Source: Methanocorpusculum sp. (GTDB lineage: Archaea > Halobacteriota > Methanomicrobia > Methanomicrobiales > Methanocorpusculaceae). From it: a DNA stretch of 10,789 bases. The position numbers and the translations under genes are program-made. The notes beneath the pieces are model-generated. The model made no database searches. It was given only the letters and a program-made list of their open reading frames with translations, and had not been told where the DNA came from. Of the stretch, positions 1 to 10,789 are shown one piece after another; the stretch's first letter is position 1; each line of letters opens with the position of its first letter. The stretch is from positions 1-10,789 of the forward strand of contig JAGARL010000248.1 of the NCBI GenBank assembly GCA_017622255.1. Direction: 5' to 3'.

Positions 1-606
1 CCAGCCGGAAATTTCCTGGGAGAAACGGATCGGGGTTGCGTCCTGCAGGTGGGTACGTCCGCTCTTGGTGATGCCTTCGTGCATTTTTTCAAGCTTGCGG
101 AATGTAGTGATCAGCTTTGCGGCTGCGGGAATGAGTTTATCTTCGATGGCACAGACGGCTGCGATGTGCATTGCGGTCGGGAAGGTGTCGTTGGAAGACT
201 GGCTCATGTTGATGTCATCGTTCGGATGGCAGAGCTTCTTGCCTGCGAGTTCGTTCGCACGGTTCGCAATAACTTCGTTGGCGTTCATGTTGGACTGGGT
301 ACCGGAACCGGTCTGCCATACAACGAGCGGGAAATGATCGTTGAGGTCGCCTGCGATGACTTCGTCGCACGCCCTGGAGATGACTTCGAGCTTTTCGTCG
401 GTCATCTTCGCGGGCTTGAGTTCGTTGTTGGCGATCGCTGCCGCCTTCTTGAGGATGCCGAATGCCTTGGTGATTTCACGCGGCATGGTTTCGATGCCGA
501 CACCGATCTTGAAGTTTTCGTGGCTGCGTTCGGTCTGGGCTGCCCAGTACTTGTCCGCAGGGACTTTTACTTCCCCCATCGAGTCGTGTTCAATGCGATA
601 TTCCAT
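1..606 (-). CDS. fumC: Class II fumarate hydratase, N-terminal 202 residues (cut by window edge)
   Basis: Interconverts malate and fumarate; class II enzymes are iron-independent cytoplasmic tetramers. I translated the minus strand from the ATG at 606; the frame stays open to base 1. The protein begins [20 protein letters not shown]. Class II landmarks are [12 protein letters not shown] (residues 101-112), [13 protein letters not shown] (135-147) and [10 protein letters not shown] (183-192). The family is about 460 residues, so over half is missing, including the C-terminal GSSxMPxKxNP signature. An AAGGAG lies 11 bases before the ATG and overlaps the mdh stop; the gap to mdh is 15 bases, so the two are surely co-transcribed. 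Next to mdh it points to a malate-to-fumarate step. The related aspartase family shares these motifs, but the QTGSGTQ stretch and the mdh neighbour favour fumarase. Confidence 0.95.
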
Positions 607-621
607 AGTATGTCCTGCTCC

Positions 622-1566
622 TTAAATCTGGATATTGCTGATGATCTCCTTAAGGCAATCTGCACTCTTGTGAAGAAGTGCGGTTTCTTCATCCGTCAGA
701 GGGAGAAGAATTCTGCCGTTGATGCCATCACGACCTACGATATTCAGAGTGCTGAGACATACATCTTCGATGCCGTATTCACCGTGCATCATGGTGGAAA
801 CCGTCATCGTCGTATCCATACCGTTGATAAGGCTCTTGCAGATATGGCAGACGGACAGGGATACCGCATAGAAGGTTGCGCCCTTTCTCTGAATGACACG
901 TCCGCCGGACTTACGCATATATTCTTCCACTTCCTTAAAATTCATGGGTGGGAACAGTGCATTTTCCGCTTTTACGACCTTGGGGTATTCCGCAATCGGT
1001 ACATTGGAAATATTCGCAAGAGACCACGGCACAAAGGAAGAGTCGCCGTGTTCGCCGAATACATAAGCGTGCACGTTCTGCTGGTTAATGTCGTAATATT
1101 CGGAGATTCTTGCGCGGAGACGTGCTGTGTCGAGAATGGTACCGGAACCGATGATCTTCTTTTCCGGAAGCCCGGACAGCTTGTTCCAGACATAAGTAAT
1201 GATATCAACGGGATTGGAAACGATTACATAGGTTGCATCCGGAGCATATGCGGTAACCTGAGGAATGATGGATTTCATGATGTTCACGTTTGCCTGAGCA
1301 AGATCAAGTCTTGTCTGACCGGGTTTACGTGCAAGACCGGAAGTCAGTACCACAATATCAGAGTTTGCAGCATCACGGTAAGATCCTGCATAAATAGACA
1401 CAGGGGGACAGAACGGTACTCCCTGACGAATGTCGAGAGCTTCGCCGAGCGCTTTTTCTTCGTTAATGTCGATCATAACGATTTCAGAAACATAACCGCC
1501 GCTCGCCATGGCGAATGCAATTGTAGAGCCGACGCTGCCGGCACCAATAATAGTAACCTTTGCCAT
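622..1566 (-). CDS. mdh: NAD-dependent malate dehydrogenase of the lactate dehydrogenase-like type
   Basis: Predicted to interconvert oxaloacetate and malate with NADH in the cytoplasm. It has 314 residues, normal for the LDH/MDH superfamily. The Rossmann loop is GAGSVGS (8-14), and Asp33 at the end of strand 2 indicates NAD rather than NADP. The catalytic loop reads SGLARKPGQTRLDL; its Arg80 aligns with LDH residue 102, which is Gln in lactate and Arg in malate dehydrogenases. Other active-site residues are Arg86, Asp146, Arg149 and His173 in GEHGDSSFVPWS. The rest looks LDH-like, including GATFYAVS where LDH has GATYYG, so activity on other 2-oxoacids cannot be excluded. AAGGAG lies 8 bases before the ATG. 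Fumarase follows after 15 bases, which supports malate as product. Substrate choice is inferred from Arg80 and context. Confidence 0.88.
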   Translation of the reverse strand: MAKVTIIGAGSVGSTIAFAMASGGYVSEIVMIDINEEKALGEALDIRQGVPFCPPVSIYAGSYRDAANSDIVVLTSGLARKPGQTRLDLAQANVNIMKSIIPQVTAYAPDATYVIVSNPVDIITYVWNKLSGLPEKKIIGSGTILDTARLRARISEYYDINQQNVHAYVFGEHGDSSFVPWSLANISNVPIAEYPKVVKAENALFPPMNFKEVEEYMRKSGGRVIQRKGATFYAVSLSVCHICKSLINGMDTTMTVSTMMHGEYGIEDVCLSTLNIVGRDGINGRILLPLTDEETALLHKSADCLKEIISNIQI

Positions 1567-1586: not shown

Positions 1587-1615
1587 AATATGTGATATTC
1601 GTATGTCGCTGTCTA
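1587..1615 (-). promoter_or_regulatory. Possible weak internal promoter for mdh-fumC
   Basis: On the minus strand TAGACA (1610-1615, five of six matches to TTGACA) is followed after 17 bases by CATATT (1587-1592, four of six to TATAAT). It spans the end of the upstream hydrogenase gene and the 46-base gap, the largest in the operon. A start from it would leave only about 15 bases before the mdh ATG, just enough for the AAGGAG. This could give mdh-fumC expression independent of the hydrogenase genes, but matches of this quality arise by chance in AT-rich DNA. Confidence 0.25.
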
Positions 1616-3034
1616 TTTCAGAACCGATACAGCATCGCTGATCGTTTTTTCCATTGCTTCCTTGCCGTATTTATCGACCTCTGCTTTGTTCTTTTCGCCG
1701 TGAGTCAGGCAGCCTGCGCCGCCGATACAACCGCCGATACATGCCATACCTTCAATGAAGTTGCCGTCAAGAAGGTTCTTGCTCGCTTTCAGCAGAGCTG
1801 TACGACAGGCTTCAATACCGTCACAGGGAACTGCCTTGAGAGCAAAGTCGATGTTCTGTTCCTTCATTGCCTGTGCCACTGCATCGGAAAGACCGCCGGA
1901 ACGTGCGAAGATACGTCCGAAATAGGAAGCATTGTCGAGGACATCTTCCGGTAAGGCGGTAATGTCAATGTCGCGGCTGTCGTACAGTGCCTGCAGTTCT
2001 TCAAAAGTCATCACTGCATCCACATACGGCTTGACTTTCTCAAGCTGTGCCTCCGCTTTCTTCGCGGTACAGGGACCGATGAACACAACGCGGGACTGCG
2101 GATCATTTTCCTTGATATACTGTGCAAGAGCAGCCATCGGAGACGGATTATGCGAAACAAGGGGAAGAAGTTTGGGGAACGCAGACTTGATATAAGCCAC
2201 GAATGCCGGACAGCAGGAACTGGTCAGCATACCCTTTTCGGCAAGTTCGCGGGATTCCGCCATCGCCACCATATCGGCACCGAGTGCCGCTTCGATGACT
2301 GTATGGAATCCGAGTTTCTTCAGACCGCTGATCACCTGTCCGAGTTTCGCGTAGGTGAACTGGCTCGAAATCGAAGGTGCGACAACAGCATAGACCTTGT
2401 AATTCTTGTTATCATCGCTCTTCTGAATCATGTCGATCACATTCAGAATGTAGGAGCGGTCTGTAATGGCACCGAACGGGCACTGATAAACACACGCGCC
2501 GCACTGGATGCACTTCGTCTTGTCGATTGCCGCCGCGTTGTTTTCCGTAATGGAAATTGCCTTGACCTTGCAGGCATTCTGGCAGGGACGGCTGCGGTTT
2601 ACGATTGCGAAATACGGACAGACCTTGGCACACTGTCCGCATTCCACACATTTGCTTTTATCAATATGGGCTACGTGATCGTTGTCAAACCAGATTGCAC
2701 CGCGCTTGCAGACATCCTCACAGCGATGTGCCAGGCATCCGCGGCAGGAATCGGTTACTTCATAACCGGCAGCCGGGCATTCGTCACAGGCAATATCGAT
2801 GACCTGAATAACATTCGGATCCTCTGCATTACCGCCCATAGCGAGTTTAACACGTTCTGCGAGAATGGCACGTTCCTTGTACACACAGCAGCGCATCGTG
2901 GGTGTGGTATTGGGAACGATTATCTTCGGAATATCGAGAACATTTTCCAGAAGCGTTCCCGCCCATGCCTGACGTGCCACTTCACGAAGAACCTTATATT
3001 TCAGATGCTGTACTTTGGTATCAAATTTTTTCAT
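1613..3034 (-). CDS. [FeFe] hydrogenase, group B type, with N-terminal ferredoxin-like clusters
   Basis: Predicted to catalyse reversible H2 formation or oxidation with ferredoxin-type electron exchange, in the cytoplasm. It has 473 residues and no signal peptide. Iron-sulfur ligands in the N-terminal third include C97/C100/C105/C109, C129/C132/C135/C139, C151/C155 and C175/C178/C181/C185, enough for three or more [4Fe-4S] clusters. The H-cluster motifs are TSSCCPAFV (C274 the likely proton-transfer cysteine, C275 a ligand), IGPCTAKKAEA (C322) and ACIGGCIGGAGC (C432, C436). The GPCTAKK and GGCIGGAG forms, and the missing Trp after SCCP, fit group B rather than the group A M2/M3 enzymes. Its AAGGAG overlaps the stop of the phosphatase gene, 12 bases upstream. 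The maturases HydE, HydF and HydG are not in this window. Group B biochemistry is little studied, so direction of catalysis is unknown. Confidence 0.92.
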   Translation of the reverse strand: MKKFDTKVQHLKYKVLREVARQAWAGTLLENVLDIPKIIVPNTTPTMRCCVYKERAILAERVKLAMGGNAEDPNVIQVIDIACDECPAAGYEVTDSCRGCLAHRCEDVCKRGAIWFDNDHVAHIDKSKCVECGQCAKVCPYFAIVNRSRPCQNACKVKAISITENNAAAIDKTKCIQCGACVYQCPFGAITDRSYILNVIDMIQKSDDNKNYKVYAVVAPSISSQFTYAKLGQVISGLKKLGFHTVIEAALGADMVAMAESRELAEKGMLTSSCCPAFVAYIKSAFPKLLPLVSHNPSPMAALAQYIKENDPQSRVVFIGPCTAKKAEAQLEKVKPYVDAVMTFEELQALYDSRDIDITALPEDVLDNASYFGRIFARSGGLSDAVAQAMKEQNIDFALKAVPCDGIEACRTALLKASKNLLDGNFIEGMACIGGCIGGAGCLTHGEKNKAEVDKYGKEAMEKTISDAVSVLK

Positions 3035-3046
3035 GCAGCATTCTCC

Positions 3047-4222
3047 TTAAAAATAACTGACCTTGATCCGCTTCCCCATCCGCTTCAGACATTCGGAAAG
3101 TTCTTCCACCAGATTCATCTTGATGCTGAATGTGATCGGCAGATCGGGATTCTGATGAGCCGGGTTGATCGCACGGCCCACATAGAAATTAATATCGGTT
3201 GCTTCTTCAAACAGGAGTCGGCTGATGAGGGACGCTCCGTCACGGTGCTGGCTCCAGATATCGTATTTTGTGTTTTCTGCAAGATGGTCTCTTGCATATT
3301 CCAGAACATGGTTGACGGTAATAACCCCTTCCGTTACCAGATCGACCCCTTCCAGTTCCGCAATCGGAGGAATATCGGATTTTTCAAATTTCAGACTTGC
3401 CTTGAGAGGCTTGTGCAGGAATTTTGCCGCAATGGAAGAAGTGGTTCCGCCGCAGATGATGTGTTTTCCTTCTTTCGAGAAGAACAGGGACATCATGCGG
3501 TCGCAGTCGTCGCGGTTGGAAGGAGGACCGAACAGAATGTTCATCGGCTCGCGTTTCCGGACACGCACAATACATGCCGTCGCATCATCACCGGGCTTGC
3601 TGTCGTACAGACGGTTGCATTCGTCCACCAGCATCGTCGAAAGCGTTTTGGCAGTGTATCCGACGGGAACCAGCATTTCGATGAAGTCGATGATCTCGCT
3701 GCGCTTCCAGCCGAAATTATACGCGGTTCCGATTCCGGCGTGGGGGCATCCGTCACTCATAGCGACGAATACGTCATTTTCCTGAAGCTGAATGACGGAT
3801 TTCAGGATTTTCTTTCCGCCGATGTTCATTTCCGTGGTCGGATAATCATAGTTTTTTTCGTCGCGGATGACAATCACCTTCGGGTTGTCGTACTGGATGA
3901 TTTCCGCCGTCTGGTTGTTCTTGATCTGAATGATGGTAAAGGTAGAGTACGCAACGCCGCGAACCGAGCATACCGGAAGGGTTGCCGCGATGGTCGCAAC
4001 ACATTCTTCCAGCGGAAGTCCCTCCGCCATCATGGTGGAGATAATCTTGGATGTCAGTGTGGACAGGATACTGGCTTTCACGCCGCTGCCCAGACCGTCG
4101 GCAAGGACAATCACCGTGGCGTTCTCATTGCTCTGCTCTATGATATCCACATGGTCGCCGCAAAGCTGTTCGCCGTAATGATTGATGCTTTTATAGCCGA
4201 TATCCGCACATAAATCATTCAT
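3047..4222 (-). CDS. SpoIIE/PP2C-type serine phosphatase with an unassigned C-terminal domain
   Basis: Predicted metal-dependent phosphoserine/threonine protein phosphatase; the substrate is unknown. Counting from the ATG at 4222 it has 391 residues. Metal-binding motifs in order are ADGLGSG (41-47, Asp42), AMSDG (154-158, Asp157) and KPGDDATA (209-216, Asp212/Asp213), the SpoIIE/RsbU pattern. Residues from about 228 to 391 form an extra region that I cannot assign; it contains NRDDCDRMMSLFF and CGGTTSSIAAKF. No membrane segment is seen. The frame also allows a TTG start at 4228, but AAGGAG sits 10 bases before the ATG against only 4 before the TTG. The start overlaps the end of the sensory hydrogenase gene by 8 bases, implying translational coupling. 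Phosphatases of this type accompany PAS-containing hydrogenases in clostridial hfs-type loci, so it is likely the output of H2 sensing (inference). Confidence 0.87.
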   Translation of the reverse strand: MNDLCADIGYKSINHYGEQLCGDHVDIIEQSNENATVIVLADGLGSGVKASILSTLTSKIISTMMAEGLPLEECVATIAATLPVCSVRGVAYSTFTIIQIKNNQTAEIIQYDNPKVIVIRDEKNYDYPTTEMNIGGKKILKSVIQLQENDVFVAMSDGCPHAGIGTAYNFGWKRSEIIDFIEMLVPVGYTAKTLSTMLVDECNRLYDSKPGDDATACIVRVRKREPMNILFGPPSNRDDCDRMMSLFFSKEGKHIICGGTTSSIAAKFLHKPLKASLKFEKSDIPPIAELEGVDLVTEGVITVNHVLEYARDHLAENTKYDIWSQHRDGASLISRLLFEEATDINFYVGRAINPAHQNPDLPITFSIKMNLVEELSECLKRMGKRIKVSYF

Positions 4223-5891
4223 CTTCAATCGACTCCTTCAGTTTGGCAAGTGCGATCTTGGTTTCCGCTGCCGTTTCTCCGAGAAGCGAAGCGATTTCCT
4301 GTACGATACGCATCTGTTTGTCAACAACTTTATCGGCAACTTCGATGGTCTGTCGGCTGATGTTTTCCTTCTTTACGCGATCGCTTTCTTCGTTTGTCAC
4401 GTCGCGGAGGATACCGATCAGAAGGTGGGTGTCACGGTCGTACACAACGGTCTGTTCCACAAAACGCTTGTATTCCGCAAGATAGATGCGCTGATCGTGG
4501 ATGTCGCGTCCGGAATTCAGAACCTTCAGGAACATCGTAGGGTCAAGAATACGTACAACCTGATCGCCGACAATATCGGAATCGTAACGGATGTTCATGA
4601 TTTTCTTTGCCGCTTCGTTGATCTGCTGGACTTCCATCTGTTCGTTCAGAACGATCAGGCCGTTCGGCGAGCTGTTGACGATCGCATCGGAGAAACTTTC
4701 CGCCTTGTCCTTCAGGAAGGGCAGACACATGGACGGCTCCGCTTTTCCCTGATAGATCGCAATCGCTTTGTCACGGCAGGTATTGTAGCCGCAGGTTCCA
4801 CAGTTCAGTTCCTGAGAAGGCTTATACTTCCCCATCTGCCGCAGAATCTGCATGATTTCGGTTTCCGTCGGCATCTGCGCTCTCTGCTCGATATACTCAA
4901 AGTGTTTTTTCAGGACAACATCTTTCGGCTGTTCCACGTCAAAGTCCTTTTTGCCGGCATACGCGGAAATCGCCAGATAATCATGAACATGGGAGGAATG
5001 ATACTTTTCCATAACGGGACCGCTGATGCAGCTGCCCACGCAGGCAGACATTTCGATGAAGCACTTGTGAATCTTTCCGGCTTCGATGTCGCGCAGCGCG
5101 TTCATGCAGTTTTCCACACCATCCAGAGCCAGATATGTGTATCCGGAAATTTCCGGTTCCATCGTTTTGAGAATACCGCCGGTTGTGGGGAAGAAGCGTG
5201 CGCGGCTGTTTTCGTCGGAATCCATTTCCGTCTGCAGGACGATCTTTTCCTGCTTCAGCCATTCCGTGAGTTCTTCGTAAGTCAGAACCGCGTCCACGAT
5301 TCCGTCGTAGTGTTCGGCTTCATCTTTTTTCGCAACGCAAGGGCCAATGAAGACCGTCTTTGCGCCGGGAATCCGTTTTTTGATATCGATACAGTGTGCC
5401 TGCATCGGGGAAACGATGTCCGCCAGATATTCCAGTGCCTTCGGGAAATGCTTCTGAATCAGCAGGTTGATCGAGTGACAGCAGGAGGAGATGATAATAT
5501 CCCGTTCGTCTTCTCTCAGCATCCGTTCGTATTCTTTCTTGACAATGGTTGCACCGATTGCGGTTTCTTCCACATCATAGAACCCGAGCTTTTTGAGTGC
5601 TTCGCGCATGGCATGGATGCCGACACCGTGGTAATTGGCAATAAAGGAAGGAGCAAGGCTGACAACGACCGGTTCGCCGGTTTGCAGAAGAACTTTCACT
5701 TTTTCCAGCTCGCTTGTAATTTCCTTCGCGTTCTGAGGACATACAACAAAGCACTGTCCGCAGAGAATACATTCATTTCCGATAATATGCGCCTGGTTTC
5801 CGGAGAATCGGATCGCTTTTACCGGACAGTGACGGATACACTTGTAACAGTTTTTGCAGTTCGATTTTTTAAATGTCAGACAATTCGGCAT
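4215..5891 (-). CDS. Sensory-type [FeFe] hydrogenase with ferredoxin, H-cluster, Fe-S and PAS domains
   Basis: Likely a redox or H2 sensor (HydS/HfsB-like) rather than a bulk hydrogenase. Counting from the ATG at 5891 it has 558 residues. Domains in order are a 2x[4Fe-4S] ferredoxin (C12/C15/C18/C22 and C41/C44/C47/C51), an H-cluster domain with ISSCCHS (C137/C138), IGPCVAKKDEAE (C185) and SACVGSCISGP (C284/C288), a further Fe-S motif CGTCGYNTC (C364/C367/C372) with C389 as probable fourth ligand, a PAS domain (about 399-505, starting near SFSDAIVNSSPNGLIVLN), and a C-terminal helical tail. An in-frame ATG at 5912 abuts the upstream stop (TGATG), but the one at 5891 has a GGGGG-type ribosome site about 9 bases away and begins MPNCLTFKKSNCKNC, as expected. 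No kinase domain follows the PAS; the partner phosphatase is encoded immediately downstream with overlap. Confidence 0.9.
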   Translation of the reverse strand: MPNCLTFKKSNCKNCYKCIRHCPVKAIRFSGNQAHIIGNECILCGQCFVVCPQNAKEITSELEKVKVLLQTGEPVVVSLAPSFIANYHGVGIHAMREALKKLGFYDVEETAIGATIVKKEYERMLREDERDIIISSCCHSINLLIQKHFPKALEYLADIVSPMQAHCIDIKKRIPGAKTVFIGPCVAKKDEAEHYDGIVDAVLTYEELTEWLKQEKIVLQTEMDSDENSRARFFPTTGGILKTMEPEISGYTYLALDGVENCMNALRDIEAGKIHKCFIEMSACVGSCISGPVMEKYHSSHVHDYLAISAYAGKKDFDVEQPKDVVLKKHFEYIEQRAQMPTETEIMQILRQMGKYKPSQELNCGTCGYNTCRDKAIAIYQGKAEPSMCLPFLKDKAESFSDAIVNSSPNGLIVLNEQMEVQQINEAAKKIMNIRYDSDIVGDQVVRILDPTMFLKVLNSGRDIHDQRIYLAEYKRFVEQTVVYDRDTHLLIGILRDVTNEESDRVKKENISRQTIEVADKVVDKQMRIVQEIASLLGETAAETKIALAKLKESIEDE

Positions 5892-5911
5892 GGGTTGGAT
5901 CCCCCTTTCCA

Positions 5912-6157
5912 TCAGAGTTTCTTAAGAACCTGTTCTTTGAAAAATTCCTTGAAATTTTCACGGGTAATGCCGGTGTGGATCTCATCGTCAACCTGTATGG
6001 TTACGCCGACGCGGTTGCACTTTCCGATACAGAAGCTGCCGACCAGAGTGACGCTGTCTCCGAGGTTTTCCTTTTCAATCGATTCCTGAAGAAGTTCCAC
6101 GATTTCCGGCGAACCTTTCAGATGGCAGGAACTGCCTACACAAACCTGTATAACCAT
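5912..6157 (-). CDS. Small NuoE-like thioredoxin-fold [2Fe-2S] protein, second copy
   Basis: Probable electron carrier or accessory subunit for the hydrogenase genes. It has 81 residues with the four-cysteine pattern C6-x4-C11 ... C43-x3-C47 of thioredoxin-like [2Fe-2S] ferredoxins (the HydC/NuoE C-terminal fold). It lacks the N-terminal helical part of full NuoE (about 160 residues). It is a tandem paralogue of the gene just upstream: both begin with VC(V/I)GSSCHLKGS and I count 30 of 50 identical N-terminal residues. The start follows the preceding stop by 4 bases and an AGGTG lies 7 bases before the ATG inside the end of that gene. Its stop overlaps by one base an alternative ATG of the sensory hydrogenase. 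Confidence 0.88.
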   Translation of the reverse strand: MVIQVCVGSSCHLKGSPEIVELLQESIEKENLGDSVTLVGSFCIGKCNRVGVTIQVDDEIHTGITRENFKEFFKEQVLKKL

Positions 6158-6161
6158 GCTC

Positions 6162-6401
6162 TTACACCTTTGCGCGAACCGCTTCGTCGAAGAAGGTATC
6201 TACGGTATCGGGAGATACGGAGTGGAATTCTTCGTCAACCATAACGCAGACGCCCTGCTGACATTTGCCGAGACAGAAGGTAGCACCGAGTTCTACCTTG
6301 TCACCGAGTTCGTACTTGGCAATCAGCTCCTGGAGCTGTTCAACAACCTGACGGGAACCTTTCAGATGGCAGGAACTGCCGATGCAAACTGTGATTTTCA
6401 T
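6162..6401 (-). CDS. Small NuoE-like thioredoxin-fold [2Fe-2S] protein, first copy
   Basis: This 79-residue protein has [2Fe-2S] ligands C6, C11, C43 and C47 in VCIGSSCHLKGS and FCLGKC. An additional Cys52 is absent from its tandem copy. It has neither a NuoF-like flavin/NADH subunit nor a fused domain beside it, unlike the HydABC bifurcating hydrogenases where the NuoE-like HydC works with HydB. It may therefore shuttle electrons to the two hydrogenase-family proteins encoded downstream, or serve as a redox relay to the sensory one (inference). The ribosome site AAGGAG lies 8 bases before the ATG. The gap from the kinase gene is 14 bases. Confidence 0.88.
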   Translation of the reverse strand: MKITVCIGSSCHLKGSRQVVEQLQELIAKYELGDKVELGATFCLGKCQQGVCVMVDEEFHSVSPDTVDTFFDEAVRAKV

Positions 6402-6415
6402 GATGGGATCTCCTT

Positions 6416-7192
6416 TTATTTATTAAAATAATTTTTCATATGATTTTTGAAATCCTGCGAATTCACACATTCCAGAAGGACCGTGCGCTCCTGCAGGGGA
6501 CGGCGGACAGACATTGCCGCACCGATGATCGGCAGCCATGCGTAGACGTTTTCCTTGTCTTCATGGCTTTCGCTGCAATACAGCTCAAGATACAGTTCTG
6601 CGTCAGCGTAACCGCTGTTGATCCAGAGCATGATGTAGGTCTGAGCAACATCTGCCAGAGGATTGCCGCAGGAAGCGAGAGTCCAGTCAATGGTATAGTA
6701 GATGCCGTCTTCGGAAAGGATGACGTTGGACAGGCAGAAATCGCCATGGCAGATCGCCGTGCCCTTCGCCATCGTTTCCAGACGGTTATGGAGGTCAAAA
6801 CGGGTAGTTGCGTCGAGTTCGGAAACACTGATTTTCTGATTCAGCTCATCCTTCAGGCGATACAGATACGGGCAGTCTTTTTTGTGGATTGTATTCTGAA
6901 GATCGGCAAATGTACGGTAATACGTTGTTTTGTTTTCGGGATGCTCCGCCATCAGCTGCTCCATCGTCTTTCCGTGGATGTATTCCGTTACAATCGCCCA
7001 CTTGCCGTCCAGATTCGTCACTTCCAGAACCTTCGGAATGCTGAGACCGGTTTCTTCCAGACGTACATGGTTGGAGGCTTCGTTGAAGATCGCCGCCTTG
7101 CTGTAGGGAACATTGAAAACCTTGACGCAGCGGTCCCCGTCGCGGTAAATGGTCTTTTTGGTCCGTACCGCAATCACTCTGTCTAATTTCAT
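6416..7192 (-). CDS. Aminoglycoside phosphotransferase (APH)/choline kinase-family small-molecule kinase
   Basis: A 258-residue cytoplasmic kinase-fold protein; the substrate is unknown. Visible features are Lys24 in CVKVF (ATP-binding lysine candidate), Glu38 (helix C candidate), a hinge at IVTEYIHGK (67-75), the catalytic loop HGDFCLSN (149-156, Asp151 and Asn156) and the metal-binding TIDW (167-170, Asp169). These are intact, so it should be active. The family includes aminoglycoside, choline, homoserine and fructosamine kinases and some protein kinases; nothing here points to drug resistance. The start overlaps the rex stop as ATGA, with AAGGAG inside the rex end, so translation is coupled to rex. 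Its place between Rex and the hydrogenase genes suggests a role in the same redox response, perhaps phosphorylation opposed by the phosphatase downstream; that is speculation. Confidence 0.85.
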   Translation of the reverse strand: MKLDRVIAVRTKKTIYRDGDRCVKVFNVPYSKAAIFNEASNHVRLEETGLSIPKVLEVTNLDGKWAIVTEYIHGKTMEQLMAEHPENKTTYYRTFADLQNTIHKKDCPYLYRLKDELNQKISVSELDATTRFDLHNRLETMAKGTAICHGDFCLSNVILSEDGIYYTIDWTLASCGNPLADVAQTYIMLWINSGYADAELYLELYCSESHEDKENVYAWLPIIGAAMSVRRPLQERTVLLECVNSQDFKNHMKNYFNK

Positions 7193-7836
7193 ATCTCTTC
7201 TTTCTCCTTACGTTTTTGATCCAGCAATTGATTGTTCAGATACGCCAGCGATACCGCCAGATTCTCCTGCAGGAAGAGAACTCCTTCGGGAAGGCGCAGC
7301 TTGCACGGTGCAAAATTCCAGATTGCCGTGATTCCGCTTGCAAGCATCTGATCGCATACCGCCTGTGCGGAGCCTTCTCCGACCGTGATAATTCCGATCT
7401 TGATATCATGCGTACGGCAGAATTCCTGAAACTGTGACATCGGCAGAATTTCCAGAGAGCGGTGTATTTTCAGAACCTGTTCGTTGCAGTCGAACGCCGC
7501 CATGATCTGAACTCCGTATTTTTCAAACTCGTCGTATTCGAGCAGAGCTTTCCCGAGTTTCCCGGCTCCGACAAGCACCGCAGGAGTAAGTTTGCTCTGT
7601 CCCAGACAGGATTCTATGCTTTTGATCAAGTCGCCGGTACGGTATCCGAGTTTGGGTTTTCCTTTCCCGCAGACAACACTGAGATCTTTTCGAACCTGCA
7701 CTTCCCCGAGAGACAGTTCTTTCGCAATTTTGGTCGAGGAAATGAACGGTATATCCTGAGCGGATACATCCTCCAGAAACGCCAGATACTGCGGCAAGCG
7801 TCCCAGCACCGCTTTTGTTATCTTACTTTTTTCCAC
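7189..7836 (-). CDS. rex: Redox-sensing transcriptional repressor Rex
   Basis: Rex dimers bind operators when NAD+ is high and release them on binding NADH, controlling fermentation and hydrogen genes in Gram-positive bacteria. This copy has 215 residues, the usual size. It has a winged helix (about 1-75, with the recognition segment GEVQVRKDLS), a Rossmann domain with VGAGKLGKALLEY (89-101), Asp116 after strand 2 (AAFD), the conserved WNFAP (173-177) and a C-terminal domain-swap helix (ENLAVSLAYLNNQL). The wing reads SVVCGKGKPKLGYR, somewhat unlike the common FGEFGKRGVGY. The start is GTG at 7836 with AGGGAG 6 bases before it. It is the first gene of the operon, so it likely responds to the same redox state as its co-transcribed hydrogenase and malate dehydrogenase genes. 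Confidence 0.95.
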   Translation of the reverse strand: MEKSKITKAVLGRLPQYLAFLEDVSAQDIPFISSTKIAKELSLGEVQVRKDLSVVCGKGKPKLGYRTGDLIKSIESCLGQSKLTPAVLVGAGKLGKALLEYDEFEKYGVQIMAAFDCNEQVLKIHRSLEILPMSQFQEFCRTHDIKIGIITVGEGSAQAVCDQMLASGITAIWNFAPCKLRLPEGVLFLQENLAVSLAYLNNQLLDQKRKEKEEI

Positions 7837-7868
7837 AGTTTTCTCCCTATTTTGTCGTTTACAGCAGT

Positions 7869-7897
7869 ATTATAACAAATCACGCTTCTGAAAGGAA
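7869..7897 (-). promoter_or_regulatory. Promoter of the rex-hydrogenase-mdh-fumC operon
   Basis: On the minus strand a perfect TATAAT (7869-7874) has TTCCTT 17 bases upstream (7892-7897) in place of TTGACA. Transcription would begin near 7862, about 26 bases before the rex GTG. The poor -35 suggests dependence on an activator, and a conserved block lies directly upstream. A TTGTTA overlapping the -10 resembles half a Rex site, but the other half is absent. Confidence 0.65.
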
Positions 7898-7935
7898 TTC
7901 TTAAAATGTTATATCAGTCATATCCGTATCGATAA
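7894..7935 (-). promoter_or_regulatory. Putative operator/activator site upstream of rex, shared with the pck promoter
   Basis: This 42-base block matches 9059-9100 at 35 positions without gaps. It contains TTATCGATA at its far end, the interrupted dyad ATATGACTGATAT (7911-7923), and AGAATTCC running into the -35 element. The distance to TATAAT is 19 bases in both copies. The dyad is compatible with a LysR-type T-N11-A box. The binding protein is not shown by the sequence; the LysR gene upstream is the best candidate. Confidence 0.6.
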
Positions 7936-7958
7936 CAACGGTATAGATTGACAAACAA

Positions 7959-8004
7959 CAAACGCCCGTATGTACCTTGTCGTACAGGCACATACGGGCG
8001 TTTG
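7959..8004 (-). terminator. Rho-independent terminator of the LysR-type regulator gene
   Basis: Two 19-base arms (7959-7977 and 7986-8004) flank an 8-base loop. Only one pair, A7974/C7989, is mismatched on the plus strand; read from the minus strand it becomes a G-U pair, so the minus-strand RNA forms a continuous stem with a GC-rich core. The stem starts 11 bases after the lysR stop and is followed on the minus strand by the T-rich TTGTTTGT. This isolates lysR from the rex promoter that lies beyond. On the plus strand a run of seven T follows within a few bases, so it may also stop antisense transcription. Confidence 0.85.
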
Positions 8005-8015
8005 CTGTTATTTTT

Positions 8016-8921
8016 TTACAGGTATTTTCTTTTCGCTTCACACAATGCGGTGATAAACTGTTTGTCGAGCATCGATAATTTGTATCCATTTCGATATATC
8101 AAAACATCTTTATATATTTTTGTATTATCAACACACACTTTTTCTGTCAGCTGATAACGCTCCAGAACACTGTCCGGAACAAGCGATACCCACATGAAAG
8201 TTTCCGGATTTTTCGACAGAAGATCAAACTGACTTCCGCGCTCATAGATGAAAATGCGGCGGTCAATGTTGTCCGGAAGCTCTTCCTTCATCACCTTGGA
8301 AAGAGACATGGAAGGAACATACGGATCGGCATGGGCAATCTCGATCAGACCTTTCAGATCCTCAAACGTGATATGATCTTTCTGCGCCAGCGGACTTTCC
8401 GTACTCATCAAAAGGTGATACCGGAATTCAGTCACCATTTCGTAACCGATATCCTTTTCCTCCAGCATATCCTTAAAATACTTATCATAATTTTCCGCAT
8501 AACGGATAATACCCAGATTGTAGTTGTTTTCAAGAATATTGCGGATCGTTCTCTGTGAATTCGTTTCCTTATAAAAGATTTCCGCAGGTTCTTTCGTCAA
8601 CGATTTGGAAAATTCGGCAAATGCTTCCGAAATATAGCAGGCGCGCGGAACGGATATGGAAAATTTCTGTTTCCGTGCTGAGTTATCCTTATAATATTTT
8701 TCAACCTGATCAATCTGCGAAAGAATCCCTTTCGCGAAATTGATGAATTCTTCCCCTTCCGGTGTCAATATCATCCCCCGCGAAGTGCGGTCAAAAATTA
8801 CGATACCGAGATCATATTCGAGTTCTTTGATCGAACGGCTTAAATTCGGCTGCGCGATAAGCAGAACTTCCGATGCTTTGTTCAGAGAACCGGATTTTGC
8901 TACCTCCACAGCGTACTTCAT
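8016..8921 (-). CDS. LysR-type transcriptional regulator, divergent from pck
   Basis: A DNA-binding regulator with 301 residues from the ATG at 8921. The winged-helix segment is YAVEVAKSGSLNKASEVLLIAQPNLSRSIKELEYDLG followed by IVIFDRTSRGMILTPEG, typical of the family, then a C-terminal inducer-binding domain of about 200 residues. The ligand is not evident. The ATG appears to be five codons late: family proteins usually have about six residues before this Tyr, and the frame upstream reads INILH before MKY, with GGAAGGG 9 bases before an ATC codon at 8934-8936. From that start the protein would be 306 residues. LysR proteins commonly regulate a divergent neighbour, here the PEP carboxykinase gene. 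The gene ends at its own terminator, so it is not part of the rex operon although on the same strand. Confidence 0.93.
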   Translation of the reverse strand: MKYAVEVAKSGSLNKASEVLLIAQPNLSRSIKELEYDLGIVIFDRTSRGMILTPEGEEFINFAKGILSQIDQVEKYYKDNSARKQKFSISVPRACYISEAFAEFSKSLTKEPAEIFYKETNSQRTIRNILENNYNLGIIRYAENYDKYFKDMLEEKDIGYEMVTEFRYHLLMSTESPLAQKDHITFEDLKGLIEIAHADPYVPSMSLSKVMKEELPDNIDRRIFIYERGSQFDLLSKNPETFMWVSLVPDSVLERYQLTEKVCVDNTKIYKDVLIYRNGYKLSMLDKQFITALCEAKRKYL

Positions 8922-8945
8922 ATGCAGTATATTGATAAAAATACA

Positions 8946-8952
8946 CCCTTCC
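8946..8952 (-). promoter_or_regulatory. Ribosome binding site that argues for an earlier lysR start
   Basis: GGAAGGG on the minus strand is the only good ribosome site before lysR. It lies 24 bases from the ATG at 8921, too far for normal initiation, but 9 bases from the in-frame ATC at 8934-8936. No ATG, GTG or TTG occurs in that frame between the upstream TAA and 8921. Initiation at ATC or at the CTG (8925-8927) is possible. Confidence 0.5.
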
Positions 8953-8968
8953 GTTGTGAATTATAAAT

Positions 8969-8996
8969 ATTATACCATGTTTTTAACACATTGCAA
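8969..8996 (-). promoter_or_regulatory. Promoter of the LysR-type regulator gene
   Basis: On the minus strand a perfect TATAAT (8969-8974) is preceded, after 16 bases, by TTGCAA (8991-8996, four of six to TTGACA). Transcription would begin near 8962, giving a leader of about 25-40 bases depending on the lysR start. The intergenic region from here to pck is AT-rich and contains no gene. Confidence 0.6.
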
Positions 8997-9027
8997 TATT
9001 ATTTTTAACTTTATTGCGCTCTTTCCC

Positions 9028-9044
9028 CTGATATCAGTATATCC
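9028..9044 (-). promoter_or_regulatory. Third, variant copy of the putative operator, upstream of lysR
   Basis: The minus strand reads GGATATACTGATATCAG, against GGATATGACTGATATAA upstream of rex: one base is missing in the middle. It includes the perfect 10-base palindrome CTGATATCAG (9028-9037). It lies about 31 bases upstream of the lysR -35 and 14 bases from the pck-side block, so it could serve autoregulation of lysR or be a second site for pck. AT-rich sequence makes chance similarity possible. Confidence 0.4.
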
Positions 9045-9058
9045 ATTCACACTCCGTA

Positions 9059-9100
9059 TTATCGATATATATATGACCGATATACTATTTTGAGAATTCC
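9059..9100 (+). promoter_or_regulatory. Putative operator/activator site upstream of pck, shared with the rex promoter
   Basis: This 42-base block is 35/42 identical to the minus strand of 7894-7935 and has the same spacing to its TATAAT. It contains TTATCGATA (9059-9067), the dyad TATATGACCGATATA (9070-9084, five-base arms around five bases) and AGAATTCC up to the -35. The dyad centre lies about 55 bases before the predicted transcription start, a normal place for a LysR-type activator site. Confidence 0.62.
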
Positions 9101-9125
9101 ATTTTGCGCAAAGATCTGATATAAT
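9097..9125 (+). promoter_or_regulatory. Promoter of the PEP carboxykinase gene
   Basis: A perfect TATAAT (9120-9125) lies 17 bases after TTCCAT (9097-9102), a weak -35. The predicted start near 9132 gives a leader of about 57 bases in which I see no hairpin or riboswitch. The weak -35 directly under a conserved upstream block fits an activator-dependent promoter. Confidence 0.68.
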
Positions 9126-9188
9126 AGACAGCGTAGAAAAACATAACTCAGTAGAAGAAAATATCGAAAAAATTTAAGGAGAATGAAA

Positions 9189-10789
9189 ATGGTTACGAAT
9201 AAGCATGTCCTCTCCTGGATTGAGGAAATGGCAGCCCTGACTTGCCCTGATAAGATCGTATGGATCGACGGTTCCGAAGAACAGGCGGAAGCACTCCGTG
9301 CGGAAGCTTGCTCCACCGGCGAAATGATAAAGCTCAACGAAGAAAAGCTCCCCGGATGCTATCTTCACCACACTGCTGTCAACGACGTAGCGCGCGTTGA
9401 AGGCAGAACCTTCATCTGCACTTCCAAGAAGGAAGACGCAGGCACCATCAACAACTGGATGGATCCCGCTGAATGCTACGAAAAGCTCGGCAAGCTCTAT
9501 AAGGGCGCTATGAAGGGCAGAACCATGTACGTTATCCCCTACTCCATGGGTATCGTTGGTTCCGACTTCGCTAAGTACGGTATCGAACTTACCGACTCCA
9601 TCTATGTCGTTCTCAATATGCTCATCATGACCCGCGTAGGCACCAACGTCCTCGAAGCTCTCGGCGACAGCGACGACTACATCAAAGGTCTCCACGCAAA
9701 GGCTGAGCTCGACGAAGAAAACCGTTACATCTGCCACTTCCCGGAAGACAACACCATCTGGTCCGTTAACTCCGGCTACGGCGGAAACGTTCTCCTCGGC
9801 AAGAAGTGCTTCGCTCTCCGTATCGCTTCCTACCTCGGCCGTAAGGAAGGCTGGATGGCTGAACATATGCTCATCCTCGGTATCGAATTCCCGAACGGCG
9901 ATGTCAAGTACATCTCCGCTGCATTCCCGTCCGCTTGCGGCAAGACCAACCTCGCTATGCTCATTCCGCCGGAAGTTTACGCTAAGCAGGGTTACAAGGT
10001 ATGGTGCGTAGGCGACGACATCGCATGGCTCCGCGTCGGTGCTGACGGTCGTCTCTGGGCAGTCAACCCCGAAAACGGCTTCTTCGGCGTTGCTCCCGGT
10101 ACCAACGAAAAGTCCAACCCGAACGCTCTCCACACCTGCCTGAAGGACACCATCTTCACCAACGTATGCCACAACCTCGACGACAACACCGTTTGGTGGG
10201 AAGGTCTCGACAACAACCCGCCGGTTAACGCACGCAACTGGAGAAACGAACCGTGGGACTACAAGACCTACGACAAGACCGACAAGGTCAAGACCGCCGG
10301 TGCTCATCCGAACTCCAGATTCACCGCTAAGGCGATCAACTGCCCGTGCCTCTCCAAGGAATTCAACAATCCGGCAGGCGTTCCGATCTCCGCAATCGTA
10401 TTCGGCGGCCGCCGTGCAAAGACCGCTCCGCTGGTATACCAGTCCACTTCCTGGCAGAACGGTACCTTCGTTGGTTCCATCATGGCTTCCGAAACCACCG
10501 CAGCAGCTGCAGGTGCAGTTGGTGTAGTACGTCGTGACCCGATGGCAATGCGTCCGTTCACCGGTTATGACATGGGTGACTACTTCGCACACTGGCTCGC
10601 AATGGGCAAGAAGATTCCGAACGCTCCGAAGATCTTCCACGTTAACTGGTTCCGCACCGACGCAGACGGCAACTTCATTTGGCCCGGCTTCGGCGACAAC
10701 ATGAGAGTTCTTCTCTGGATCCTCGCTCGCTGCGAAGGCACCGTTGACGCTGACCTCACCGCAATCGGTTACGTTCCGAAGGCTGAAGA
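9189..10789 (+). CDS. pckG: GTP-dependent phosphoenolpyruvate carboxykinase, first 533 residues (cut by window edge)
   Basis: Interconverts oxaloacetate + GTP with PEP + CO2 + GDP in the cytoplasm. I translated it from the ATG at 9189 (AAGGAG 7 bases upstream); the frame is open to the window edge. It is the GTP family, not the ATP type: residues 246-256 read FPSACGKTNLA with the hyper-reactive Cys250 and P-loop lysine, followed by VGDDIAW (274-280), PGTNEKSNPNA (303-313) and FGGRRAKTAPLVYQS (405-419). The family is about 600 residues, so roughly the last 65-70 are missing. Codon use is strongly biased (mostly AAC, TAC, GGC, CTC), unlike the operon genes, which suggests high expression. With mdh and fumC it can feed PEP into the reductive C4 branch; in the other direction it serves gluconeogenesis. 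Context favours the former, but the sequence does not decide. Confidence 0.96.
   Translation, partial: MVTNKHVLSWIEEMAALTCPDKIVWIDGSEEQAEALRAEACSTGEMIKLNEEKLPGCYLHHTAVNDVARVEGRTFICTSKKEDAGTINNWMDPAECYEKLGKLYKGAMKGRTMYVIPYSMGIVGSDFAKYGIELTDSIYVVLNMLIMTRVGTNVLEALGDSDDYIKGLHAKAELDEENRYICHFPEDNTIWSVNSGYGGNVLLGKKCFALRIASYLGRKEGWMAEHMLILGIEFPNGDVKYISAAFPSACGKTNLAMLIPPEVYAKQGYKVWCVGDDIAWLRVGADGRLWAVNPENGFFGVAPGTNEKSNPNALHTCLKDTIFTNVCHNLDDNTVWWEGLDNNPPVNARNWRNEPWDYKTYDKTDKVKTAGAHPNSRFTAKAINCPCLSKEFNNPAGVPISAIVFGGRRAKTAPLVYQSTSWQNGTFVGSIMASETTAAAAGAVGVVRRDPMAMRPFTGYDMGDYFAHWLAMGKKIPNAPKIFHVNWFRTDADGNFIWPGFGDNMRVLLWILARCEGTVDADLTAIGYVPKAE

Follow-up and report, generated by a model that had tools for sequence, protein, structure and literature searches.

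A contig of 10,789 nucleotides deposited as Methanocorpusculum sp. (JAGARL010000248.1, assembly GCA_017622255.1; the whole stretch is called the window here) carries a gene for a LysR-type regulator between two blocks of similar sequence. One block precedes an operon that encodes the redox-sensing repressor Rex and two [FeFe]-hydrogenases; the other precedes pck, the gene for phosphoenolpyruvate (PEP) carboxykinase (PCK). The locus raises the question of why these genes share an upstream block and which protein would read it. The explanation favored here, with a probability of roughly three in four, is that the blocks are two copies of a LysR-activated sigma-A promoter that switches an electron-sink operon, and that the second copy was captured by pck in the lineage of the window.

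The shared block in the window

The minus strand at 7894–7935 and the plus strand at 9059–9100 agree at 35 of 42 positions without a gap. This count was first made in a reading of the letters alone (the sequence-only reading) and stands after recomputation: in 1000 dinucleotide-shuffled pairs of the two intergenic regions the best ungapped 42-nt match never exceeded 28 (mean 23.1, standard deviation 1.1), and six shuffles of the whole window gave best matches of 27–30. A repeat tool returned the same pair of blocks as repeat I1 (45 nt, 82%). As that reading had also stated, each copy has a poor −35 hexamer (TTCCTT, TTCCAT) and a perfect TATAAT (7869–7874, minus strand; 9120–9125, plus strand), at an equal distance from the block.

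Each block is a copy of the same predicted 75-bp promoter, whose parts keep a fixed distance: an operator, a TTCCNN −35, a 17-bp spacer and an extended −10. Identities between the copies amount to 37/45 in the operator, 4/13 in the next 13 bases and 9/17 in the last 17; the 50-bp flanks show 14/50 and 16/50. The likeness of the two copies is confined to the promoter. Since the operator is kept while the spacer is random-like, a promoter read by a LysR protein is favored.

A 75-bp matrix was trained on regions downstream of lysR, including the rex copy of the same species (L017) and leaving out the pck copy. The rex and pck copies score 50.4 and 36.2, respectively, with the next best site in the window at −21.9 and a maximum of −0.5 in reversed sequence (1.14 Mb of locus sequence, both strands). 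The single promoter/operator architecture proposed earlier for both genes is supported. At the 34 most informative positions of the family consensus, the rex copy matches 30 and the pck copy 29.

The window corresponds to contig C202 in a bin of 1.5 Mb that is 79% complete (G000). LysR and PCK have no match at 1e-20 in 60 relatives of this bin, 24 of them of the same genus, and positions 5564–10789 are 98.3–98.5% identical to SVQN01000008.1, a contig of the Oscillospiraceae metagenome-assembled genome (MAG) SIG618 that ends there (locus L017, genome G061). For these two reasons the window contig is probably mis-binned, and owing to the near-identity G061 is treated as the window's own species. 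A search of the bin for the block gave 13 places with at most two mismatches and 6 in the reversed control; the bin appears foreign to the contig. A plasmid collection held no match to the window.

The promoter family behind lysR and its probable reader

The best 80 of 250 relatives of the lysR gene were fetched (68–100% identity), all on MAG contigs and most named for ruminant gut samples, and 78 of these loci were long enough for a scan of the 700 bp downstream. The 75-bp promoter lies within that distance in 67 of the 78; some copies are identical, leaving 61 distinct. The family consensus reads TTATCGATAnTGATAATACCGATTAAACATTTTAAGAATTCCCAA, 13 nearly free bases and TGTTAAAATAnTAACGA, with TTCCCA as the −35, a 17-bp spacer and an extended −10. 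Among the other 11 loci, L027, L059 and L061 carry the element farther down, directly before rex, L044 (G076) carries it with an indel, and L037 has a partial element cut by the contig end. Despite intervening sequence after lysR, the element stays beside rex in L027, L059, L061 and L070. Where the gene after the promoter is readable, it is rex, adhE or an iron-containing alcohol dehydrogenase gene, the last of these conserved and found at L063:9525, L160:790, L232:366, L233:11343 and L236:10708. Because the promoter precedes three kinds of NADH-sink genes, it may serve an electron-sink role.

In the relatives, the element contains a palindrome, TTATC-N6-GATAA; with a transcription start 7 nt past the −10, its center would fall at about −65.5. 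The window copies retain only part of its right arm. The T-N11-A motif is present in the consensus as T1/A13 and T4/A16, both asymmetric about the even dyad center. Since the element tracks lysR and the palindrome lies near −65 in relatives, the LysR protein encoded between the window blocks is likely the activator of both promoters. One activator for both had been proposed before; the shared architecture agrees with this and a LysR-type protein is the likely reader, and we infer that it binds and activates at both sites in response to some signal or ligand. The window LysR aligns over nearly its full length with the CidR model, below the cut-off of that model.

A comparable site is the lys box of PltR at pltL, placed at −74 to −53 in the available part of PMC3382589, a palindrome of ~20 bp between −75 and −53. 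In both cases a palindromic box lies near −65 with the activator gene alongside. Unlike the PltR site, the site here is downstream of lysR at the next operon and not in a divergent intergenic region, and its dyad is even-centered with an asymmetric T-N11-A.

The location bears on a second explanation, in which some other regulator reads the element and the adjoining lysR is merely linked. LysR proteins often act on a divergent gene, and the conserved site lies downstream of lysR; moreover, the element occurs where lysR was not detected (G113) and, as a scar, in G109. Against this, the element is found at most 700 bp from a lysR orthologue in 67/78 loci, and both its position and its dyad are as expected for a LysR-type site. 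Of the 25 genomes in the genus of G061, the two with lysR carry the element, and 20 of the 23 without lysR have no match at 0.001. The G113 locus, in turn, was read from a 6.6-kb contig of a draft genome. A different regulator is considered quite improbable, and LysR is retained as the reader.

The loci of these two genomes may be described further. In G113 the promoter (L174:1733–1807) lies between rex and hydS and not before rex, and no LysR was found at 1e-40. In G109 the scar-like remnant (L173:9975–10177) consists of the terminator, the promoter and the first rex codons at 92% identity; the L173 contig has no lysR or further operon genes, and the genome has no LysR at 1e-40.

A feature that separates the window from many of its relatives is found at the −10. 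In 42 of the 67 family promoters a Rex-like box over the −10 matches the clostridial Rex consensus TTGTTAANNNNTTAACAA, taken from the available part of PMC8457756, at 11 or more of 14 positions; the other 25 match at 5 to 9. The family resembles the clostridial Rex regulons in these matches, and differs in two respects: the box forms part of a LysR-type promoter, and the window copies lack it. In the relatives, an activator upstream and an NADH-sensitive repressor at the −10 would form an AND-type gate. The conservation that the sequence-only reading proposed to look for was found on the rex side at most loci; the Rex-like box, present in many relatives and absent from both window copies, had been missed.

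These counts also bear on whether the shared block could itself be a Rex operator through which Rex alone co-regulates the rex operon and pck. The matches in relatives would fit, as would the position of rex as first gene of its operon. The window copies, however, match the consensus at 7/14 and 5/14, no site anywhere in the window reaches 11/14, and the shared block covers the −35 and the sequence ahead of it, without the Rex consensus. Control by Rex alone is very hard to credit, and activation by LysR remains the preferred reading.

The target operon and the pck copy

The usual gene order in relatives is lysR, promoter, (rex), adhE, aph, hydS, a SpoIIE-type phosphatase gene and hydA2. From its gene content, this target is predicted to be an operon for the disposal of NADH and H2, that is, an ethanol/H2 electron sink. 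The operon of the window (Table 1) departs from it. In 28 of the 31 operons whose contig reaches hydA, adhE is present, and none of the 28 shows mdh downstream. The three operons without adhE (L085, L087, L094) carry mdh, and the window is a fourth. Since mdh lies before hydA in those three and after hydA in the window, at least two events are likely. In L035, an adhE operon has mdh on the other side of lysR. A gene before hydA would be visible in all 28; behind hydA, mdh was judged on contigs that go on for at least 500 bp in 22 of the 28 and at least 900 bp in 19. The adhE gene was called by tblastn; a strict motif misses it in L026, L055, L070 and L071. Because the loci are related and some are nearly identical, these counts represent a pattern and not 31 independent cases. 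In 11 genomes of unstated completeness, full-length AdhE was absent at 1e-60 from G061, G062, G093, G099, G109 and G113; G094 gave only partial matches (38–44%), and four control genomes have the full-length protein.

Table 1. Features of the window, with candidate RNA stretches of related loci in the last row
Feature	Position	Strand	Basis or remark
75-bp rex operon promoter	7861..7935	-	operator 7891-7935, -35 TTCCTT 7892-7897, -10 TATAAT 7869-7874; matrix 50.4
75-bp pck promoter	9059..9133	+	operator 9059-9103, -35 TTCCAT 9097-9102, -10 TATAAT 9120-9125; matrix 36.2, model R1 in G061
lysR-type regulator, presumed activator of both promoters	8016..8921	-	Pfam HTH_1 (PF00126) 5.1e-16, above cut-off
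Intrinsic terminator behind lysR, just upstream of rex promoter	7958..8005	-	20-pair stem-loop and T tract
Possible lysR promoter TTGCAA-16-TATAAT	8969..8996	-	consensus scan 10/12, TG before second hexamer
rex, redox-sensing repressor	7189..7836	-	NCBIfam equivalog above cut-off
APH-family kinase-like protein, no resistance function implied	6416..7192	-	Pfam APH; also in relatives' operons
Small Cys-containing open reading frame (ORF), ferredoxin-like by eye	6162..6401	-	ORF only
Second small Cys-containing ORF	5912..6157	-	ORF only
hydS-like putative sensory [FeFe]-hydrogenase	4215..5912	-	Fe_hyd_lg_C and FeS domains
SpoIIE/PP2C-type phosphatase	3047..4228	-	Pfam SpoIIE
hydA2, monomeric group B-type [FeFe]-hydrogenase	1613..3034	-	TIGR04105 above cut-off
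Dehydrogenase of lactate dehydrogenase (LDH) fold with malate-type Arg (mdh)	622..1566	-	NCBIfam LDH above cut-off; GLARKPG motif
Class II fumarase, cut by window end	1..606	-	TIGR00979 best match, partial gene below cut-off
pck, GTP-type PEP carboxykinase, cut by window end	9189..10787	+	PRK04210 above cut-off
Candidate antisense RNA stretches (relatives)	L071:3894-4036, L070:2467-2609, L077:8111-8240, L217-L219, L221, L222		mostly LysR-type promoter, then terminator

The assignment of mdh requires some care. By NCBIfam, the gene at 622–1566 is above cut-off as an L-lactate dehydrogenase and reaches no cut-off for malate dehydrogenase (MDH), its score with the MDH model PRK06223 being 272.6 bits against a cut-off of 283. 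The GLARKPG motif places an Arg at the putative substrate-specificity position, as in L035, L085, L087 and L094; in the LDH fold, an Arg there presumably sets specificity for malate. The tie that the sequence-only reading drew to Rex, hydrogenases, malate dehydrogenase and fumarase holds for all of these genes, with the provisos that the dehydrogenase is MDH-like and is an LDH by curated models, and that adhE, the sink target of relatives, had been missed. Two small ORFs lie between aph and hydS in the window operon, and a Pfam scan reported no PAS domain at 0.001 in the hydS-like protein.

The operon resembles a putative eight-gene cluster of Ruminococcus albus 7, comprising genes for a hydrogenase, adhE, a sensory hydrogenase and a phosphatase, whose level was 111-fold lower when grown together with an H2 consumer, according to the available part of PMC6776011. 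There, the hydrogenase is called group A1, H2 sensing by a group C hydrogenase is proposed, and the counterpart of hydS is described with a PAS domain. Gene content is similar when compared by description only, whereas the hydrogenase of the window matches a group B model and the window has mdh and fum in place of adhE. In the text of PMC6776011 available, rex is not mentioned. Literature tying a LysR protein to an adhE/hydA2-type cluster was not found by title or listing, in partial coverage.

In contrast to the rex side, the block before pck has a narrow distribution. The pck gene is present in 33 of 40 genomes, three of which gave no pck locus to scan; among the 30 upstream regions, only that of the window's species (L097, G061) has the block. 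A search model, R1, gave a pck-side match in G061 alone of the 40 genomes; its first pass scored at most 121 candidates per genome, and weak copies may be missed. In the genus of G061, any R1 match at 0.001 occurred in 5 of 25 genomes and at pck only in G061. The single switch for C4 flux that had been suggested finds partial support: as a conserved switch that includes pck it is not borne out by these counts (1/30 upstream regions, 1/40 genomes, 1/25 of the genus). Searching upstream of pck and rex relatives and building a matrix, as had been advised, found conservation on the lysR/rex side, and on the pck side only the species itself. The closest relative examined, G062 (LysR 87%, pck 95%), has its pck at another place and without the block. 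Since the similarity of the two pck genes ends 13 bp upstream of the start codon, it is suggested that pck acquired its promoter by recent capture, through relocation and promoter duplication.

Weaker R1 matches were inspected in part, with 12 stretches fetched, two of which are known sites. Matches before a transporter-like ORF in G061 (C32) and G062 (C108), with matrix scores of 4.5 and 9.8, exceed the reversed maximum, lack the upstream palindrome and are probably due to chance. A search for an autoregulatory site common to the regions ahead of lysR singled out the pck copy alone (23.3); the next candidate scored 12.9, below the best reversed control (16.0).

A recent origin leaves room for a further explanation: the pck copy could be a relic of duplication, brought along as pck relocated to the side of lysR, that has lost its response to LysR, with pck driven by the improved TATAAT. 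Its occurrence in one species, the end of homology 13 bp before the start codon and the perfect −10 would all be consistent with a relic. A decaying copy would not be expected to keep 37/45 operator positions against 4/13 in the spacer and 14/50 and 16/50 in the flanks, to fit the family consensus nearly as well as the rex copy (29/34 and 30/34), or to have an operator that is identical in two assemblies of the species. A relic is judged unlikely, and capture of a promoter that still answers to LysR is preferred.

Several observations weigh against the favored explanation as a whole. The pck copy is known from a single species, in two assemblies that are 98.3–98.5% identical over 5564–10789, and the operator positions at which the copies differ do not carry significantly less information than those at which they agree (p = 0.11). 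The element was not seen by inspection in 6 of the 78 loci (L019, L073, L079, L080, L086, L093), it occurs without a detected lysR in the two genomes described above, and the region ahead of lysR itself shows no general site. The LysR_substrate domain (PF03466) reaches 22.8 bits in the window LysR against a cut-off of 28. Lastly, the adhE/mdh count rests on related, partly near-identical draft loci, with mdh behind hydA judged only on the longer contigs.

A candidate antisense RNA and a possible wider electron-sink switch

In some relatives, a candidate trans-encoded RNA follows a promoter of this class; its initial ~35 nt are antisense to hydB of the bifurcating [FeFe]-hydrogenase. Promoter blocks at L070:2395, L071:3822 and L077:8039 are followed by a stretch of ~130–140 bases that ends in a strong terminator. 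No coding gene was recognized in the three stretches and Rfam gave no match to them at gathering thresholds. In L070 and L077 one forward frame runs through all 146 bases without a stop, for which reason a small protein is possible; in L071 it spans 38 codons. A blastn search of the window at 0.001 gave no match to the stretch.

When the L071 stretch was searched for, 24 of 40 genomes gave matches at 0.01, nearly all in the first 31 bases only. The matched sites (16 stretches fetched) share one similar coding context on the opposite strand, and by protein search the match lies inside hydB in G061, G062, G086, G087 and G089, the gene product having Nuo51, NADH_4Fe-4S and ferredoxin domains. Within 40 bases, each of the three RNAs pairs with hydB of its own genome, at 36, 32 and 36 positions when G-U is counted. 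Near-full matches to a model that combines the promoter with the antisense stretch were obtained in 8 of 395 family genomes at 1e-8, six of them new (under stricter filters); the antisense core was found in seven of these eight loci, L220 being without it. Among the eight RNAs with the core (these seven and L071), mean ungapped identity is 82% in the 34 antisense bases and 43% in the 36 that follow. In L077 the stretch is followed closely by the adhE promoter, and in G469, G266 and G433 by the rex promoter.

Other results count against an antisense function. hydB was not found at 1e-60 in G469, G266 and G255, G433 keeps little of the operator, and the copy in G266 scores −30.9. Several of the RNAs pair as well or better with hydB of other genomes, so that descent from a piece of hydB may account for part of the match; since a preference for the own genome was not seen, co-evolution is not claimed. 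A literature search on antisense RNA to hydB or hydrogenase found, by title, only work on Helicobacter pylori, and one on antisense RNA to an NADH-dependent electron-bifurcating hydrogenase found no paper.

Taken together, a mechanism may be proposed. LysR would bind the palindrome ~65 bp upstream of the start along with AT-rich sequence that extends to the weak TTCCNN −35; the bound protein would recruit RNA polymerase to the extended −10. In gut Clostridia, this would switch on the sink operon of rex, adhE, aph, the sensory hydrogenase, the phosphatase and the group B-type hydrogenase, with Rex probably vetoing the promoter in most relatives at the box over the −10. The lineage of the window has no adhE, has mdh and fumarase appended, lacks the Rex box and carries pck next to lysR behind another copy of the promoter. 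The likely effect, with PCK presumed to run in the carboxylating direction, is that PEP would be drawn into the reductive C4 branch (PCK, MDH, fumarase) as an NADH sink that replaces ethanol. Sequence, conservation and gene context of the element were observed, as was the exchange pattern of adhE and mdh; the remainder of the mechanism is proposed.

A broader scheme is offered tentatively, at somewhat less than even odds. Gut Clostridia may possess a two-armed electron-sink switch in which the LysR promoter class turns on the alternative sink (adhE or, in the lineage of the window, MDH, fumarase and PCK, each with the group B-type hydrogenase) and, in some relatives, also an antisense RNA that would simultaneously silence the NADH-dependent bifurcating hydrogenase. 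In the window, gene exchange and promoter capture would then have begun to redirect this switch from ethanol toward C4 acids. If true, the H2-responsive adhE/hydA2-type clusters would gain a transcription factor and a 75-bp motif with which their regulon may be traced, the candidate antisense RNA would form a direct link between two hydrogenase systems, and an electron sink would have been swapped while its control region stayed in place. The release of H2 as opposed to ethanol or C4 acids in fermenters bears on methane formation in ruminants.
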